Positions 31,407 through 53,739 of a stretch of 64,000 bases of DNA are shown here, piece after piece. The notes under the pieces were generated by a model. That model saw only the letters and a program-made list of their open reading frames with translations, ran no database searches and was not told where the DNA came from. Positions within the stretch are counted from its first letter, which is position 1. Each line of letters opens with the position of its first letter. The translations under genes and the position numbers were made by a program. This stretch comes from Granulicella cerasi (GTDB lineage Bacteria; Acidobacteriota; Terriglobia; Terriglobales; Acidobacteriaceae): positions 860,592 through 924,591 of the forward strand of contig NZ_JAGSYD010000003.1 in the NCBI RefSeq assembly GCF_025685575.1. The letters are read 5' to 3'.

Positions 31407-34400
31407 TTATTGGACCGTCAACGTAAGCGTAACCGAGCGAGTGAGCGTTCCGGAGGTTCCGGTGACTACAACTTGGTACGTCTGGGGTGCAGAACCGTAA
31501 TAACCGTCGCTCGTGGAGTTCAAGCAGCCGGTCAACGCCGTGAGAGGAAGAGCGAAGATCGCAAGCATGAGCAGCTTCGCCATGCGGCGACGACGCTTGA
31601 ACGCGAGCAGCGGCAGGCCGAAGATCGCCACCGAAAGTGGAGCGAGTCGCTGCGACATCGGGCGCGGGGCAGACGGAGCGGCCATGGCCTTCACAGCCGG
31701 CGGCGTGATCGCCACCGTGAACGCAGTCTCTGCATCGCCAGCGGCCATCGAAGCTGGCGTGGTGACGACCTTTGCGCCGGTCGGAGCGCCGCTCGTTGTG
31801 AACGTGATCGCTCCCGCGAAGGTCGAGCCGCCCAGCGGCGAAGCCAGCAGCTTGTACGTCGCGGTGCTGCCACCGGTGATCGAATACGACGATGAGCCAC
31901 CGCTCGCAATATTGAGCGCGAAGTCTTCTACAAGCTCGGGATACTGCGCCGAGGCTGAACCCGTGTAGTTGCCATCGCCCTGGTAGGTAGCGACGAGGTT
32001 GTGCGTGCCGATGGTGCTGAAGAGCACGTTCGACAGCGTTGCCGTACCGTTGCTCAGCGCCGCAGAGCCCACCGTTGCGCCGCCGTCGGTGAAGATCACC
32101 GTCCCCGTCGGCACAGCCGTGCCTGAACCCGCGTTAGAGACAACTGCGGTCAGCGTCACTGCGTTGCCGATCAGCGTCGGGTTCGCAGAGCTGGTCATCG
32201 TAGTCGTAGAGGTCGTCTGTGCCGAGGTGACCAGGACGCCGTTGCTCGTGCCTGCAAGCGTGCCGCTAGTAGCGGTGATCGTTTGCGTGCCGAGCGTGCT
32301 CAACTGCACGCCCGTCGACGGAGCGACGAAGGTATGCACGCCAGCATCGGCTGTCGTGAAGGTGTAGCTGTTGCCACCGTAGAACTTCGCCGTGGTATCG
32401 CTGGAGGTGAAGGCTACGGTGCCGGTGTACCCCGCAGCCGTAGCGCCGTTCGCGCCCGTCGCCGTGATGGTGAAGCTCACCGTGCCGCCAGCCTTGATCG
32501 TCGCAGGCGTCGCCACGATGGTGAAGCCCGTCGCCACCGCGTTTACCGTGACCGTGTTGCTGGTGCCGACCATCGTACCGCTGGTGGCGGTGATGGTCTG
32601 CGTGCCCGCGGTGTTCAACGTGGCGCCTGCGGTGAACGTGTGCACACCGTTGTCAGCCGAGGTGAAGGTGTAGCTCGTGACACCGAACTTCGCCGCAGCA
32701 TCGCTTGAGCTGCAGACCACAGTGCCCGTGTAGCCCGTCGCCACGCTGCCCGAAGCGTTCATCGCGGAGATCGTGTAGCTCACGCTTTGGCCCGCATCGA
32801 TGGTCGTCGGCGTCGCCGTCACCTTGAATGCCGTTGCGGGCGCAGCGTTCACCACGACGCCGTTGCTGGTGCCGGTGAGTGTGCCGCTCGTGGCCGTGAT
32901 CGTCTGCGTACCAGTCGTGTAGAGGTCCGCCGCTGCGCTGCCGGTGAAGGTGTGCACGCCAGCATCGGCGGTGGTGAACGTGTAGCTGGAACCGCCGAGG
33001 AATTTCGCCGCGCTATCGCTCGAGGTCAACGCGATCGTGCCCGTGTAGCCCGTCGCCGTCGCGCCGTTCGCACCCGTTGCCGTGATGGTGAAGCTGACCG
33101 CACCACCCGAGGTGATGCTCGTCGGCGTGGCCACGATCGTGAACGCGGTAGCCGTCGGCGGGTTCACGACGACACCGTTGCTCGTGCCGGTGAGCGTGCC
33201 GCTCGTCGCGGTGATCGTCTGTGTGCCAGTGGTGTAGAGGTTCGCAGCAGCGCCACCGGTGAAGGTGTGCGTGCCTGCGTCAGCGGCCGTGAAGACATAC
33301 GTCGTGCCGCCCAGGAACTTCACAGCGCTATCGCTCGAAGCCAGCGCCACCGTACCGGTGAAGCCCGTCGCCGTCGTGCCGGTCGAACCCACTGCAGTAA
33401 TCGTGAAGCTGACCGCGCCGCCCGAAGCAATGCTCGTCGGTGTGGCCACGATGGTGAACGCAGTAGCCGTCGGCGGGTTCACTACGACACCGTTGCTCGT
33501 GCCGGTGAGCGTGCCGCTCGTGGCCGAGATCGTTTGCGTGCCCGTCGTGTAGAGCTGCGCCGCTGCACTGCCGGTGAAGGTGTGCACGCCGGCGTCAGCG
33601 GTCGTGAAGGTATACGTCGTGCCGGCGAGGAACTTCACAGCGCTATCGCTGGAGGTCAGCGCGACCGTGCCGGTATAGCCCGTCGCCGTTGCGCCCGAGG
33701 AACTCACTGCCGTGATCGTGAAGCTGACAGCATCGCCAGAGTTCACGCTGGCAGGCGTTGCGACAATCTTGAACGCAGTCGCCGTCGGCGGGTTCACCAC
33801 CACACCGTTGCTGGTGCCGGTGAGCGTGCCGCTCGTGGCTGTGATCGTCTGCGTGCCCGTCGTGTAAAGCTGCACCGCAGAGGTGAACGTGTGCGCACCC
33901 GCATCCGCCGTGGTGAACGTATAGCTCGTCACACCGAACTTCGCGGCGCTGTCGCTCGACGTAAAGGCCACCGTACCGGTGAAGCCCGTGGCCGTCGCGC
34001 CCGAAGATCCAAGCGCGGTAACGGTGTAGCTCACCGAATCGCCCGAGGTGATTGCCGTCGGCGTCGCCACAATCTTGAACGAAGCTGCGGTCGGCGGGTT
34101 CACGAGAATGCCGTTGCTCGTGCCCGTCAACGTGCCGCTCGTGCCCGTGATCGTCTGCGTGCCGGTCGTGTAAAGCTGCACCGCAGCGGTGAAGGTGTGG
34201 ACGCCTGCGTCGGCGGTCGTAAACGTGTAGCTCGTTGCGCCGAATTTCGCGGCGCTGTCGCTCGACGTGAAGACTACCGTGCCGGTGTAGCCCGTGGCGG
34301 TCGCGCCGGTGCTGCTGACGGCGGTGACCGTATAGCTCACCGAATCACCCGAGGCGATCGTCGTCGGCGTCGCCACAATCTTGAACGCGGCTGCAGTCGG

Positions 34401-37202
34401 CGGATTCACCAGCACGCCGTTGCTTGTGCCCGTCAGTGTTCCGCTCGTCCCTGTGATCGTCTGCGTGCCGGTCGTGTAAAGCTGTGCGCCCGCGGCGAAG
34501 GTATGGACGCCTGCATCTGCGGTTGTAAAGGTGTAGCTCGTCGTGCCGAACTTGGCGGCACTATCGCTCGACGTGAAGACCACCGTGCCCGTAAAGCCCG
34601 TCGCCGTCGCGCCCGATGCGCCCGATGCGCCCACCGCCGTCACCGTATAGCTCACCGAATCACCCGAGGTGATCGTCGTCGGCGTCGCCACAATAGTGAA
34701 GGAGGTCGCTGCCGGCGGATTGACGAGAACACCGTTGCTCGTTCCCGTCACCGATCCGTTGGTACCTGTGATCGTCTGCGTGCCTGCGGTGTAAAGCTGC
34801 ACACCCGAAGTGAAGGTATGCACGCCCGCATCGGCTGCGGTGAAGGTATAGCTCGTTGCGCCGAACTTCGCTGCGCTATCGCTAGACGTGAAGACCACCG
34901 TTCCCGTGAAGCCCGTTGCCGTGACGCCCGACGATCCCACCGCCGTGACGGTGTAGCTCACCGAGTCGCCGGAGTTGATCGTCGTCGGCGTCGCTACGAT
35001 CTTGAAGGCTGATGCCGTGGGAGTACCGACGACAACGTTGTTGCTCGTGCCGCCTCCATAGCCGTCCGAGGCGGAGATCGTCCACGTACCGATCGTGATG
35101 AGCTGTACGCCTGCAGTGCCGCTGAAGGTATGCGTTCCTGCATCCGCCGCGGTGAAGGTGTAGCCGGTCGTTGCGAACTTCGCCGCGCTGTCCGTCGAAG
35201 TGAAGGTGACCGCGCCGGTGTATTTCGGCGCTGCTACGCCCCTAAAGGTCGGCACCACCATATAGGTGACGTAGTCACCGCTGGCGATGGAGGTTGGCGT
35301 GGCAGAGATGTAGAAGCCATCGGCCCACACGACGCGAATCGGATTGCTCGTGCCCGTCAGCGCGCCAGTTGTGCCGACGATGGTGTACAGCCCCACCGTG
35401 TTGTAGGTCACGCCGTTTGTAAAGATGTGTGTGCCCGCATCCGCGGCCGTGAAGGTGTACGTCTTCGGTGCAAAGGTCGCCGCGCTGTCGCCGGTCGAAA
35501 GCGTCACCGTGCCGATGAAGCTCTGATCGACGTTGCCGTTATCGTCCACCGCAGAGACAGTCACGCTGGTCGAAGTGCCAGGCTGGATCGTGTCCGGCAA
35601 AGCTGACACCAGCAGCTTCGTGGCCGTCGTGTTACCCGTGCCGGTCAAAGCTACAGAGACGTTGTACGTTGTCGTGGTCGACGTCGAGCTACCGACCGTG
35701 ATCGTGCCGGTACCGCTGTTCGTACCAGTCTGCGAGGGCGTGAAGTCCACCGCGTAGGTGCAAGGCGCACCCACGGCCAGCGTGTAAGCCGAGCTCGCCG
35801 CGTTCTGCACCGGGCAAGTGCTGCTGGCGTCCGTGGAGAAAGCTCCGTTCGAGATCGACCAGTTGTTGCCGCCGGAAGGCACCGTCAGCGTCAGCGCCAC
35901 GTTGCCCGAGTTCTGCAGCACCGCGGTGCGCGGATTGTCCGTGTTGTCAGGGTTGTTGACGCGCGTGGATGTCGGGAAATTCACCGCACCTGCATCGCGT
36001 TCGATCGAAAGAATACCGCTGCCATCATTGGCCGCATAGAGCGTGCCATCCAATGCAAGCGCCAGCTGCAACAGCTGCGCAGGCGATGTGCCGCTCAAAC
36101 CCAACGCATAAGCCGTGCCGTTCGAAGGCACCATCCACAAGCGATTGTTGCCCGTGTCCGCAACGAGGACGTTGCTACCCGCGTCTACGGCGACGCCATG
36201 CGGTGCCGTAACCGACGTGGTCACGACTGCGGTCGTGCCCGTATAAACACCTACCGACACCACGCGGTTGTTTCCCGTGTCCGCGATGTACAGCGTGTTG
36301 TTCGCGTCGATCGCAAGCCCCGAAGGAGCGGAAAGCGTGATGCCGCTCAGCGATAGATACGAGCTCGTGCCATCGGTCGCCACGCGCAGGATTTTGTTCT
36401 GCGTCGAGTCCGCGATGTAGACGTAGCCCTGCGCATCCACGGCGATGCCCGACGCTGCGCTCAGCGTATTTCCACCGGTCGCAAAGACCGCAGGATTGTT
36501 CCCCGGCACCAGCGAGTACACCGTCGCACCGGCCGTAATGTACAGCGTGCCCGCGCCATCGATCGCCATCTGCGTCGTGGTCGTGGCGTTCAACAGCGTG
36601 AGCACGGTCACCGTGCCGTCGGTGGTGCGGCGCAGAATGCGCTGATACTGCGAATCGCTGAAGTACAGCGAACCTGCAGCGTCCGTCACCACACCGCTGC
36701 TATAGAAGGCGCTCGGCGAAATCGACGCAGCGATGCTGAGTGCCGTAGACAACGCCGGCGAGACTGTGACCTGTGATCCAGTGCCGATGCCGTGCAGAAA
36801 GACGCGATTGACGACGCTTCCCGAGGAGTCCGTGAGCGCGACCGCGCCGCGGCGCAGCCCCGCCGCTACCGGCGAAAACGAAATCGCCACCGTGCAAGTC
36901 TGCGGAGGATTGATCGTACCCGTGCACGTCTGCGAGACGACATTGAAGTCTTTCTGCGCAACGCCTTCCGCGACCGCGCTCACGCTGCTGATCGTCGTCG
37001 TGCTCGTCGCCGAAAAGGTGATCGTATAGGTGTTGCTGGTCGCGCCGACCGCCACCGTGCCGAAGTCGATAGGGCCACCAGGCTGCAGGCCCTGCGCATG
37101 CACTACAGGGGCGGCGATCGCCGACGTGACCAGCGCCAGCGCGCCCATCGCGCCACGCGCCCAGTTCTTCAGCCTGCTGAAGTAATTGCCCTTGTAACTC
37201 AC
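31407..37202 (-). CDS. Giant secreted NHL / tandem-repeat surface protein with Arg-cluster C-terminus
   Basis: 1931 residues. GTG at 37202 is chosen because GGAG lies 9 bases upstream; two ATGs further up lack this. Order: signal peptide (ending VVHAQ); an ASH-like domain (IDFGTVAVGATSNTYTITF); an NHL propeller (about 150-420, with GIAVDAQGYVYIADST and GLAIDANNTLYIADTGNNR); a second beta domain; eleven tandem repeats of about 103 residues (524-1662); one Ig-like domain (TTTMTSSANPTLIGNAVTLT); then LLAFKRRRRMAKLLM, a hydrophobic run, TGCLN (Cys1893) and a 38-residue tail. Probably an adhesin or matrix protein; no catalytic motif is seen. Confidence 0.83.
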   Translation of the reverse strand: MSYKGNYFSRLKNWARGAMGALALVTSAIAAPVVHAQGLQPGGPIDFGTVAVGATSNTYTITFSATSTTTISSVSAVAEGVAQKDFNVVSQTCTGTINPPQTCTVAISFSPVAAGLRRGAVALTDSSGSVVNRVFLHGIGTGSQVTVSPALSTALSIAASISPSAFYSSGVVTDAAGSLYFSDSQYQRILRRTTDGTVTVLTLLNATTTTQMAIDGAGTLYITAGATVYSLVPGNNPAVFATGGNTLSAASGIAVDAQGYVYIADSTQNKILRVATDGTSSYLSLSGITLSAPSGLAIDANNTLYIADTGNNRVVSVGVYTGTTAVVTTSVTAPHGVAVDAGSNVLVADTGNNRLWMVPSNGTAYALGLSGTSPAQLLQLALALDGTLYAANDGSGILSIERDAGAVNFPTSTRVNNPDNTDNPRTAVLQNSGNVALTLTVPSGGNNWSISNGAFSTDASSTCPVQNAASSAYTLAVGAPCTYAVDFTPSQTGTNSGTGTITVGSSTSTTTTYNVSVALTGTGNTTATKLLVSALPDTIQPGTSTSVTVSAVDDNGNVDQSFIGTVTLSTGDSAATFAPKTYTFTAADAGTHIFTNGVTYNTVGLYTIVGTTGALTGTSNPIRVVWADGFYISATPTSIASGDYVTYMVVPTFRGVAAPKYTGAVTFTSTDSAAKFATTGYTFTAADAGTHTFSGTAGVQLITIGTWTISASDGYGGGTSNNVVVGTPTASAFKIVATPTTINSGDSVSYTVTAVGSSGVTATGFTGTVVFTSSDSAAKFGATSYTFTAADAGVHTFTSGVQLYTAGTQTITGTNGSVTGTSNGVLVNPPAATSFTIVATPTTITSGDSVSYTVTAVGASGASGATATGFTGTVVFTSSDSAAKFGTTSYTFTTADAGVHTFAAGAQLYTTGTQTITGTSGTLTGTSNGVLVNPPTAAAFKIVATPTTIASGDSVSYTVTAVSSTGATATGYTGTVVFTSSDSAAKFGATSYTFTTADAGVHTFTAAVQLYTTGTQTITGTSGTLTGTSNGILVNPPTAASFKIVATPTAITSGDSVSYTVTALGSSGATATGFTGTVAFTSSDSAAKFGVTSYTFTTADAGAHTFTSAVQLYTTGTQTITATSGTLTGTSNGVVVNPPTATAFKIVATPASVNSGDAVSFTITAVSSSGATATGYTGTVALTSSDSAVKFLAGTTYTFTTADAGVHTFTGSAAAQLYTTGTQTISATSGTLTGTSNGVVVNPPTATAFTIVATPTSIASGGAVSFTITAVGSTGTTATGFTGTVALASSDSAVKFLGGTTYVFTAADAGTHTFTGGAAANLYTTGTQTITATSGTLTGTSNGVVVNPPTATAFTIVATPTSITSGGAVSFTITATGANGATATGYTGTIALTSSDSAAKFLGGSSYTFTTADAGVHTFTGSAAADLYTTGTQTITATSGTLTGTSNGVVVNAAPATAFKVTATPTTIDAGQSVSYTISAMNASGSVATGYTGTVVCSSSDAAAKFGVTSYTFTSADNGVHTFTAGATLNTAGTQTITATSGTMVGTSNTVTVNAVATGFTIVATPATIKAGGTVSFTITATGANGATAAGYTGTVAFTSSDTTAKFYGGNSYTFTTADAGVHTFVAPSTGVQLSTLGTQTITATSGTLAGTSNGVLVTSAQTTSTTTMTSSANPTLIGNAVTLTAVVSNAGSGTAVPTGTVIFTDGGATVGSAALSNGTATLSNVLFSTIGTHNLVATYQGDGNYTGSASAQYPELVEDFALNIASGGSSSYSITGGSTATYKLLASPLGGSTFAGAITFTTSGAPTGAKVVTTPASMAAGDAETAFTVAITPPAVKAMAAPSAPRPMSQRLAPLSVAIFGLPLLAFKRRRRMAKLLMLAIFALPLTALTGCLNSTSDGYYGSAPQTYQVVVTGTSGTLTRSVTLTLTVQ
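32217..35633 (-). repeat. Eleven tandem repeats of about 310 bp inside the giant surface protein
   Basis: Each unit encodes about 101-107 residues with the pattern ATAFxIVATPTxIxSGD, TGYTGTVxFTSSDSAAKF, SYTFTTADAGVHTF, QLYTTGTQTITATSGTLTG and TSNGVVVNPP. Central units are near-identical in the last third, while the first two (nearest the N-terminus) and the last two are more diverged, as expected from unequal crossing-over within the array. Confidence 0.9.
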
Positions 37203-47490: not shown

Positions 47491-47955
47491 TTACTCAGCC
47501 GACTGATCGCCACCCTGCTCTTCGAGCTGCTTCTGCAGATCAGCAAGACGCTTCGCCTTGATCTCTTCGCGCTTCTCAGCCTTTGCGGTGAGTTCCTTCT
47601 CGGCATCGAGCAGCTCGATGAAGGCGATCTCGCCTGCGTCACCCTTACGGATGCCGCCCTTGACGATGCGCGAGTAGCCACCGTTGCGCTCAGCGTAACG
47701 CGGAGCCACGGTCGTGAACAGACGGTCTACCGCATCAGCGGTCATGAGGTAAGACAGGGCCTGACGACGTGCGTGAACGCTGCCGTTCTTACCGAGGGTG
47801 ATCATCTTCTCAACCAGGGGGCGCGAAGCCTTTGCCTTGGTGAGGGTCGTCTCCACGCGATCATGCAGGATGATGGAGGTGACGAGGTTGCGCAGAAGCG
47901 CACGACGATGGGAAGTATTACGACCGAGCTTGAATCCGCCCTTACGATGACGCAT
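47491..47955 (-). CDS. rplQ: Ribosomal protein L17
   Basis: 154 residues: the usual core of about 116 (MRHRKGGFKLGRNTSHRRAL, LRNLVTSIILHDRVETT, GGYSRIVKGGIRKGD) plus an acidic/basic C-terminal extension (LTAKAEKREEIKAKR and on) beyond the usual length. ATG 47955 has AAGGAG upstream. It is the last gene of the alpha operon but is separated from rpoA by the four-helix-bundle element, so its dosage could be influenced by that insert. Confidence 0.97.
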   Translation of the reverse strand: MRHRKGGFKLGRNTSHRRALLRNLVTSIILHDRVETTLTKAKASRPLVEKMITLGKNGSVHARRQALSYLMTADAVDRLFTTVAPRYAERNGGYSRIVKGGIRKGDAGEIAFIELLDAEKELTAKAEKREEIKAKRLADLQKQLEEQGGDQSAE

Positions 47956-48011
47956 GGTGATTTCTCCTTCGACTCAGCTTGTGCTGTCAGTCGGCAATCG
48001 GTGGTGGTGCG

Positions 48012-48046
48012 AGGGTCCAGGGCTCAGGGCCCGGGGTCCAGAAAAC
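48012..48046 (+). repeat. Left inverted arm of the gene-bearing element
   Basis: 35 bases differing at two positions from the arms at 50466-50500 and 53569-53603, and ending in the same GGTCCAGAAAAC. Confidence 0.85.
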
Positions 48047-48051
48047 ACAAC

Positions 48052-48402
48052 TTAGAGTTTGGAGATCAGCGAATACAACATTTTGCTGACCTGCTCTGCC
48101 AGAGCTCCGACTTCTTCGCGAAGCTCTGAAGAGCCAAACCCGAGCTCAGTTGCTATGAGCAATTGCGTTTGCACTTCTAGTGTTGAGCCACGAGCAATGG
48201 AAAGAAACTGCTTGTAATCCTTCCGTGTCCCGCGGCCGTAGCCTTCTGCAATGTTGCTCGGTATCGATACCCCGGCCCGTCGTATCTGGCTGGTAAGTCC
48301 GAACCGCTCCTCCACTGGAAACTCTGCTGTGCAACGGTAGATCGCAAGTGCTAATTCCACTGCGCGTTGCCAGACCAGCAAATCCTTGTAGGAAGAAACC
48401 AT
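48052..48402 (-). CDS. Four-helix-bundle protein (S23/IVP family)
   Basis: 116 residues from the ATG at 48402 (GTG 48438 is possible). It matches the four-helix-bundle family first known from intervening sequences of 23S rRNA genes: SYKDLLVWQRAVELALAIYR, FPVEERFGLTSQIRRAGVSI, PSNIAEGYGRGTRKDYKQFL, GSTLEVQTQLLIATELGF. The biochemical role of the family is unknown; related bundles act as accessory factors in diversity-generating retroelements. Here it sits alone inside an inverted-repeat element in the middle of a ribosomal operon, which is not a place where operons normally carry extra genes. It is co-directional with the operon, so it is likely transcribed with it. Confidence 0.85.
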   Translation of the reverse strand: MVSSYKDLLVWQRAVELALAIYRCTAEFPVEERFGLTSQIRRAGVSIPSNIAEGYGRGTRKDYKQFLSIARGSTLEVQTQLLIATELGFGSSELREEVGALAEQVSKMLYSLISKL

Positions 48403-48463
48403 TCCGTCCTGCTCAACGGGAGATGGTGCAGCGGCCACTGTGCAAGCTGACCGCCTTCGTACT

Positions 48464-48494
48464 CTGGGCCCTGGGCCCTAAGCCCTGGACCCTG
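48464..48494 (-). repeat. Right inverted arm of the gene-bearing element
   Basis: Read on the minus strand it is ACAGGGTCCAGGGCTTAGGG followed by CCCAGGGCCCAGAG. It ends 5 bases before the rpoA stop codon. Confidence 0.85.
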
Positions 48495-48499
48495 TGAAA

Positions 48500-49627: not shown

Positions 49628-49756
49628 AGGGTTCAGGGGTGAAACTCAGGTTCAGGGCCCAAGTTCAGGGCCCAGAAAAACTTACTCGAGGAGGACTTAG
49701 AACCCGAGCGCAGAAAGGCTTGCCTTCTGAGCCCCGGGCCCTAAGCCCTGTCCCCT
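49628..49756. repeat. Gene-free inverted-repeat element between rpsD and rpoA
   Basis: Left arm 49628-49681 (an expanded, degenerate form with repeated TTCAGGGCCCA units, ending CCCAGAAAAAC) and right arm 49725-49756 (TTCTGAGCCCCGGGCCCTAA and on) enclose 43 bases without a gene. The right end is 1 base from the rpsD stop codon. The transcript would fold into a long hairpin. Confidence 0.75.
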
Positions 49757-50465: not shown

Positions 50466-50571
50466 AGGGTCCAGGGCTTAGGGCCCAGGGTCCAGAAAAC
50501 AGATCAAGGCCAGCACCCAGAGCTCAGCAGCTTACGCTTTCTGAACCCTGGGCCCTGGACCCTGACCCCTG
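50466..50571. repeat. Gene-free inverted-repeat element between rpsK and rpsD
   Basis: Left arm 50466-50500 and right arm 50538-50571 enclose 37 bases. The left arm plus two following bases (50466-50502) is identical over 37 bases to 53569-53605. The right arm ends 2 bases from the rpsK stop codon. Confidence 0.85.
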
Positions 50572-53563: not shown

Positions 53564-53568
53564 GTACG

Positions 53569-53735
53569 AGGGTCCAGGGCTTAGGGCCCAGGGTCCAGAA
53601 AACAGCAACGGCCTCTCCTTCGGGAGAGGCCGTTGCCTTTCGCCTGGACAATGTTCCGCAAAGACTCAGAGCGCTTCAGAGCTTCCTGCGCTATTGAGCC
53701 TGAGCCTGGCCCCTAAGCCCTGGGCCCTGGACCCT
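53569..53735. repeat. Inverted-repeat element between bactofilin and GYF gene, containing a terminator
   Basis: Left arm 53569-53603 and right arm 53701-53735. The outer ends extend as ACGAGGGTCCAGGGC and its complement. Inside is a UUCG hairpin (53605-53636). The element fills the convergent spacer almost completely: it begins 5 bases after one stop codon and ends 4 bases before the other. Confidence 0.85.
53605..53636 (+). terminator. UUCG-loop terminator of the bactofilin gene
   Basis: Perfect 14-base arms GCAACGGCCTCTCC (53605-53618) and complement (53623-53636) around a TTCG tetraloop, a highly stable form. It lies inside the inverted-repeat element. Confidence 0.85.
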
Positions 53736-53739
53736 CGTC

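Follow-up and report, generated by a model that had tools for sequence, protein, structure and literature searches.

The closest described system to the element reported here is the intervening sequence (IVS) of the Coxiella 23S rRNA gene. This IVS is described as an insert of 428 nt with an S23 open reading frame (ORF) and a terminal stem of 28 bp; tandem GACAGAT heptamers, the number of which varies among strains, lie beside the start codon, and the stem is cleaved by RNase III in vitro (PMC4990558). Its authors argue that the S23 protein is dispensable and that its production in vivo is improbable (PMC4990558). This doubt speaks against a role of the protein in the Coxiella element.

MITEs and REP/REPIN elements are short inverted repeats without an internal transposase that are scattered in intergenic spacers, and the STRRs of cyanobacteria are heptameric intergenic repeats. 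Tandem intergenic heptamers are also known in Beggiatoaceae (TAACTGA), cyanobacteria and Bacteroidetes, as stated in the sections of PMC4679880 on these repeats.

The element studied here lies in the window, the stretch of 64,000 nucleotides of Granulicella cerasi DNA that was analysed. It shares with the Coxiella IVS, as the latter is described in parts of PMC4990558, one S23 ORF, terminal inverted repeats that would form a long stem, and tandem heptamers with one AG per unit. Unlike that IVS, it is hosted by a protein-coding operon, its gene-less copies abound, and insertion into DNA with a duplication is seen in its relatives. With the TAACTGA repeats of Beggiatoaceae and the STRRs it has in common tandem 7-nt units in spacers, those of ribosomal operons included; in the relevant sections of PMC4679880, however, such heptamers are described as direct repeats and no S23 gene is named, whereas the arrays of the window type are inverted pairs around an S23 gene. 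By our own reading, the reverse complement of TAACTGA, TCAGTTA, contains one AG per unit. Like MITEs and REP/REPIN elements, the S23 elements are short inverted repeats in spacers without a transposase inside, but their ends are heptamer arrays, the word varies among elements, and one form bears the S23 gene.

The S23 Element of the Alpha Operon

The ORF at 48052-48402 (minus strand) begins with ATG and has an alternative GTG start at 48438. It matched Pfam PF05635 (23S_rRNA_IVP) with 133.6 bits (cut-off 33.8) over profile positions 1-105 of 106, and NCBIfam TIGR02436 ('four helix bundle protein') with 128.9 bits (cut-off 24). Judged by its sequence, the gene is a member of the S23/23S_rRNA_IVP family, since it scores above the curated cut-offs across the whole domain. 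Pfam profile matches gave the order rpsM, rpsK, rpsD, rpoA, S23 gene and rplQ on the minus strand, so that the gene is flanked by those for ribosomal protein L17 and RNA polymerase alpha, followed in the operon by S4, S11 and S13. The features of the element and its host genes are as follows.

48009 to 48495, no strand: entire element in the rpoA-rplQ spacer, an S23 gene between two arms, with approximate outer ends; from the inverted pair, the sequence and the RNA fold
48012 to 48042, plus strand: arm downstream of the S23 gene, on the rplQ side, AGGGTCC AGGGCTC AGGGCCC GGGGTCC (plus strand); from the inverted and direct repeat listing
48052 to 48402 (GTG start: 48438), minus strand: S23/four-helix-bundle gene; from PF05635, TIGR02436 and a model with pLDDT 97
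48463 to 48493, minus strand: arm upstream of the S23 gene, on the rpoA side, AGGGTCC AGGGCTT AGGGCCC AGGGCCC AGA (minus strand); from the inverted and direct repeat listing
47491 to 47955, minus strand: rplQ (ribosomal protein L17), downstream host gene; from Pfam PF01196
48500 to 49606, minus strand: rpoA (RNA polymerase alpha), upstream host gene; from Pfam PF01000, PF03118 and PF01193

The two arms, 48012-48042 and 48463-48493, form an inverted pair of 31 nt with 90% complementarity that encloses the gene, which bears out the observation of the earlier note that an S23 gene with arms on both sides lies inside the alpha operon. The arms are built of tandem degenerate heptamers (AGGGTCC AGGGCTT AGGGCCC AGGGTCC), with an AG in each 7-nt unit, and the rpoA stop codon, TAG, stands about 7 nt ahead of the arm at 48463-48493. 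Between the arms, the S23 gene is the sole ORF with a Pfam match, and no nuclease or transposase gene was seen. The predicted transcript fold of the element was one structure in which the arms close one long stem (z -7.6). Because it is located between rpoA and rplQ, and hence outside any ribosomal RNA gene, the element was not classed as an rRNA IVS. No empty site was close enough to fix its exact outer ends or a target duplication. Elsewhere in the window, 32223-35489 holds about 10 protein-coding repeats in tandem, each 306 or 315 nt long and 60-83% alike.

Gene-less Elements and Other S23 Copies in the Genome

Three further elements with like arms and no gene had been noted earlier, and such gene-less derivatives are indeed present at all three positions.

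49628 to 49756, no strand: gene-less element in the rpoA-rpsD spacer, arms at about 49628-49675 (by eye) and 49726-49756; from the sequence and a direct repeat
50466 to 50570, no strand: gene-less element in the rpsD-rpsK spacer, arms at 50466-50498 and 50538-50570; from a listed inverted pair
53566 to 53738, no strand: gene-less element after the bactofilin gene, arms at about 53566-53598 and 53706-53738; from a listed inverted pair

The AGGG arm word matched the genome at 15 sites with at most 3 mismatches, compared with 0 for the reversed control word. Two AGGG arrays (G000:C1:240598-240625 and 242157-242184; L018 and L015) lie within a single open frame of 791 aa, apparently in frame; its translation resembles MnmG/GidA by eye, as though copies without the gene were able to insert into coding regions.

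The profile search found six S23 genes in the genome. Two of the other copies have strong period-7 arrays in both flanks, one of AGAGATC (L002) and one of AGCTTCT (L003, in a spacer read by eye as sucC-sucD); L004 and L005 each have one flank that scores 16 of 24 at period 7, and L006 scores 16 at period 8 only. The expectation that these copies would carry the same arms therefore failed (0/5): they have heptamers of their own, and in 4/5 (L002-L005) one flank or both reach a period-7 score of 16 or more out of 24. The earlier note had taken copies lacking these arms, together with arms never associated with such a gene, as evidence against its idea; the other five copies do lack AGGG arms, yet the broader heptamer-array pattern still holds.

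Heptamer Arrays at S23 Loci Across Bacteria

A first set of 61 genomes (the own genome and 60 relatives), 42 of which have a PF05635 gene, gave 95 loci with 100 HMM-hit ORFs and 200 flanks. The period-7 score was at least 16 of 24 in 113/200 flanks, compared with 17 for the best of the lags outside the multiples of 7. The signal was concentrated near the gene: 51 and 40 of 100 flanks had it within the first 100 nt and 13 and 5 within the next 100 nt, compared with 0-3 per later bin. Period 8 is used by some elements (L030, L038, L040, L061, L062 and L100), for example GTCAGCGA or GAACAGCA. An alignment-based scan of bacterial and archaeal species confirmed 585 stretches; the best 80 of these contain 85 ORFs and, to judge from the record titles, come from many phyla. 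At lag 7, a score of at least 18 was reached by 31 upstream and 42 downstream flanks, and lags besides 7 and 14 gave at most 4. S23 matches were present in 28/59 cyanobacterial genomes (24 above the cut-off), and of 30 flanks, 10 and 14 reached 18 at lag 7, while lag 8 gave 6 and 6.

For the composition of the units, upstream arrays were read in the sense of the gene and downstream arrays on the opposite strand. AG was the commonest fully conserved dinucleotide (33/56 upstream and 26/46 downstream arrays; CT, 7 and 3), and runs of at least 4 AG at period 7 occurred in 88/200 flanks, followed by GT (43), GA (40) and GG (39), which overlap the same units. These counts were not phased on AG. The protein-to-heptamer comparison was phased on AG by script, and its first two heptamer columns are therefore uninformative. 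A protein-to-heptamer code was considered and rejected: the Mantel r of 0.21, which 0/1000 permutations equalled, was carried by pairs above 55% protein identity, and below 55% the heptamer identity was flat at 0.26-0.32. A rule of 'five units for a pentamer' was likewise set aside, as AG-or-GG runs peak at 4-5 units but extend to 23, and upstream AG-only runs of 3, 4 and 5 units have about the same frequency, so that the rule is no more than suggestive.

Complementarity between the two flanks (score of at least 14) was found for 138/204 S23 ORFs from many phyla, compared with 33/549 swapped pairs and 8/385 shifted intervals; the remaining 66/204 had no complementary flanks at that threshold. 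This set covers ORFs of at least 85 aa, is uncorrected for kinship and includes two pairs (L046/L141 and L092/L179) that look like the same locus twice. The arms pair in register, with an identity of 0.85 against 0.66 in the best alternative heptad register and a median block of 32 nt. Variant units therefore stand in the same order in both arms, which is the pattern that copying of, or selection on, the entire stem would leave. These alignments showed, at the level of primary sequence, that the two arms of the S23 unit are complementary unit by unit across the family.

The two-armed elements have a preferred position: 78/95 come after a same-strand open frame ending at most 60 nt away (stops: TAG 36, TAA 24, TGA 18), and 49/95 begin at most 6 nt from the stop of the upstream gene. 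A search for rRNA around S23 genes gave no Rfam match in the 20 loci selected, which included several from lineages where rRNA inserts are known.

Genomes with at least 4 S23 genes held 53 arrays in 986 kb sampled (8/12 genomes, with 29 arrays from one genome), and genomes without S23 genes held 7 arrays in 647 kb sampled (2/11 genomes, with 6 in G057). These counts fit a dependence of the arrays on the S23 gene, with G057 as an exception and with small and uneven samples. In G057 (L403 and L404), six strong paired heptamer arrays occur and no PF05635 gene was found, so that either the genes were lost or these arrays are independent of the S23 protein.

Insertion of S23 Units in Cyanobacterial Plasmids

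Five plasmid sites were compared. At site 1, in plasmids of Nostocales, the element lies beside a TrbI/VirB10 gene in Trichormus (L311, 423 bp) and Scytonema (L319, 409 bp), and the site is empty in plasmids of Nostoc linckia (L316) and Tolypothrix (L317). The unit of L311 consists of the arms and one ORF with GTAAT on either side, likewise in L319, which is shorter by 14 bp, equal to two heptamers. The joined flanks and the empty plasmid were identical at 298/300 positions for L311 and L316, 294/300 for L311 and L317, and 299/300 for L319 and L316, and the GTAAT duplication includes the upstream stop codon. No array is present in the empty plasmids, which means that arms and gene arrived or left together at this site; the two act as one unit in these relatives, which supports the earlier suggestion in part. 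At the same site, L318 has, by eye, the left arm and the start of the S23 reading frame only.

At site 4, comparison of L328 with L325 gave the duplication ATTCT, with 283/304 columns identical and one base absent at the junction, and L312 against L315 gave TTCT only. No clean target duplication was seen at sites 2, 3 and 5; the insertion at site 5 is within the 3' end of the upstream gene, and L320 at site 2 has inverted arrays with no S23 gene annotated. As judged from the alignments of sites 1 and 4, it was shown that in the cyanobacterial plasmid relatives the S23 unit enters DNA whole, at a stop codon and with a 5-bp target duplication. A target duplication gave no signal over the 95 two-armed elements, where the mean longest shared word was 3.97 compared with 3.98 in swapped pairs; old insertions with fuzzy ends could be the reason. 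Movement is therefore shown for the relatives and not for the window copy. On plasmid 3 of Nostoc HK-01 (L432), an S23-like ORF with faint heptamer arms lies directly after an IS204/IS1001-type transposase gene, and the search for an empty site of this locus gave no match.

Spacers of Relatives With and Without the Gene

The rplQ-rpoA spacer was resolved in 28 of 30 loci (two did not resolve). Eight resolved spacers have an S23 gene and 20 do not, so that spacers without the gene, which the earlier note had proposed to look for, do occur in relatives; by eye, two of the latter hold a two-armed array (L136 and L140) and two a one-sided array. In the tree, the eight S23 genes fell into two well-supported groups and one further lineage, with which a single origin of the eight would still be compatible. 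Both clades carry AGGG-type arms, and L114/L072 combine, by eye, an AGGGATT left arm with an AGGGTCC-like right arm. In Flavobacterium, 8/29 resolved spacers between gmk and nadD (genes as read) hold an S23 gene with arms, and several others hold short inverted heptamer arrays without a gene (by eye). By eye, the spacers L259, L262, L265, L269, L271, L272 and L273 of this group have no gene and contain a different inverted repeat, of the cacaaagattcgc type, in which the units are about 10 nt long. Of the 12 Bacteroidota loci that were read, 6 have the S23 gene in a spacer taken by eye as sdhA-sdhB.

These spacers bear on two other explanations. The inverted heptamer arrays may have come first, as independent short palindromes that spread or grow by slippage in operon spacers, with S23 genes captured later between the arms, for instance by recombination through the heptamers. 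Such an order would account for the 3 to 1 ratio of gene-less pairs to the gene in the window and the 15 genome sites of the AGGG word, for AGGG-type arms in two separate S23 clades at rplQ-rpoA and the mixed arms of L114/L072, for gene-less two-armed arrays in the same spacers of relatives (L136, L140 and Flavobacterium), and for the arrays of G057 without a detected gene. However, the empty plasmids of site 1 carry no array at all and arms follow protein kinship among close pairs, and we regard this order of events as possible but rather unlikely. Alternatively, the S23 protein could serve the host, regulating the alpha operon by binding to the arms, and the gene would be retained for that purpose. 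The gene does lie inside an essential operon, the neighbouring spacers of which have gene-less arms with the same word; nevertheless, such regulation seems very unlikely, given that the gene is missing from most of the resolved spacers of relatives (the 20/28 above) and that S23 genes occur in many unrelated operons, with differing heptamers within one genome.

Structure of the S23 Protein and Candidate Movers

The model of the S23 protein (pLDDT 97) matched the structures 2gsc and 2rld, which have five chains per entry. It is also predicted to have the same fold as Avd of diversity-generating retroelements (4dwl, 8ubb and 8ub7), with a TM of about 0.77 and 12-14% identity; unlike for Avd, a search of this genome gave no reverse transcriptase. 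The most conserved polar residues among 204 sequences were E75 (99%), E52 (98%), Q38 and R41 (96%), E31 and S45 (93%) and N49 (92%), in the numbering of the L001 domain.

A Y1 (RAYT-like) transposase could also move the arms, which would then be REP-type palindromes, or the gene could be an Avd-type partner of a reverse transcriptase. The fold common to the S23 protein and Avd would suit the latter, and for the former the genome has four Y1_Tnp genes, and a one-sided heptamer array shares a 3.3-kb locus with one of these. That locus (L437, G000:C3:161770) has the best of the four, and its Y1 gene is enclosed by a different inverted repeat, whereas the AGGG-type array lies about 550 nt past the open frame, ahead of another, IlvN-like ORF. 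No heptamer array was found at a second Y1 locus (two of the four were examined). On the side of Avd, PF00078 had no match in the genome (98.7% complete; 3/14 control genomes match), and the S23 protein scored 17.4 bits against the bAvd model (cut-off 40). Both forms of this explanation thus appear very unlikely. The missing PF00078 match and the bAvd score below the cut-off speak against a diversity-generating retroelement, and at two of the four Y1 loci the different inverted repeat of the best gene and the lack of an array at the second speak against Y1 transposases as movers.

Discussion

The element of the window is probably an IVS-like selfish element in an mRNA operon, which moves as DNA, has arms that pair in RNA and is probably excised at the arm stem. 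Its reading as an intervening sequence of an mRNA operon follows from the plan that it shares with the Coxiella 23S rRNA element. Tandem heptamers and a terminal stem, of 28 bp in Coxiella (PMC4990558), belong to this plan, so that the relationship to the intervening sequences of 23S rRNA is even closer than the earlier note had proposed.

The unit consists of a single S23/four-helix gene with an array of AG-containing heptamers on each side, the two arrays being inverted relative to each other. We infer that the arms pair in RNA to give a stem of about 30 bp, which would be cut by RNase III; such cleavage is published for the Coxiella 23S rRNA element, in the parts of PMC4990558 concerned, and is carried over to the window element by analogy. 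The essential operon may tolerate the element because the insert would be cut away from the operon mRNA. More tentatively, the S23 protein, as a relative of Avd, might bind the AG-per-7-nt arrays and aid the spread of the element and its gene-less copies. As no nuclease or transposase gene was seen in the element, DNA breakage and joining must depend on an enzyme from elsewhere.

A wider proposal is that S23 elements form a distinct mobile class, in which a pentameric nucleic-acid-binding protein would read the inverted AG-per-7-nt arrays unit by unit, a borrowed enzyme would insert the element at stop codons with a 5-bp duplication, and RNase III would remove it from RNA; 23S rRNA IVSs and many intergenic heptamer repeats would then be branches or relics of this class. 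TRAP, which reads NAG triplets, offers an analogy for a ring that reads the units of an array. We put this proposal forward as speculative, and it may well be wrong in its full extent.

The 23S rRNA case, heptamers included, and tandem intergenic heptamers are already known, from the parts of PMC4990558 and PMC4679880 that treat them. A search of the open-licence literature found no link of S23 genes outside rRNA to heptamer arms, so that the S23-heptamer link, its generality in many phyla, the rule of one AG per unit and the duplication on insertion are apparently new, although such a search is weak evidence of novelty. The figure of a CRISPR-linkage screen includes '23S rRNA IVP' among its domains (PMC10910872, as far as that figure goes), and heptamer arrays might pass for repeat arrays there.

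If true, this would provide a single explanation for S23 genes in the 23S rRNA of scattered bacteria, for the lone 'four helix bundle' genes in operons, which are common (42/61 genomes, 28/59 cyanobacteria and at least 585 stretches in one scan), and for intergenic heptamer repeats. It would also mean that an element can spread without a transposase gene of its own and evade selection through its position at stop codons and its excision at the RNA level.
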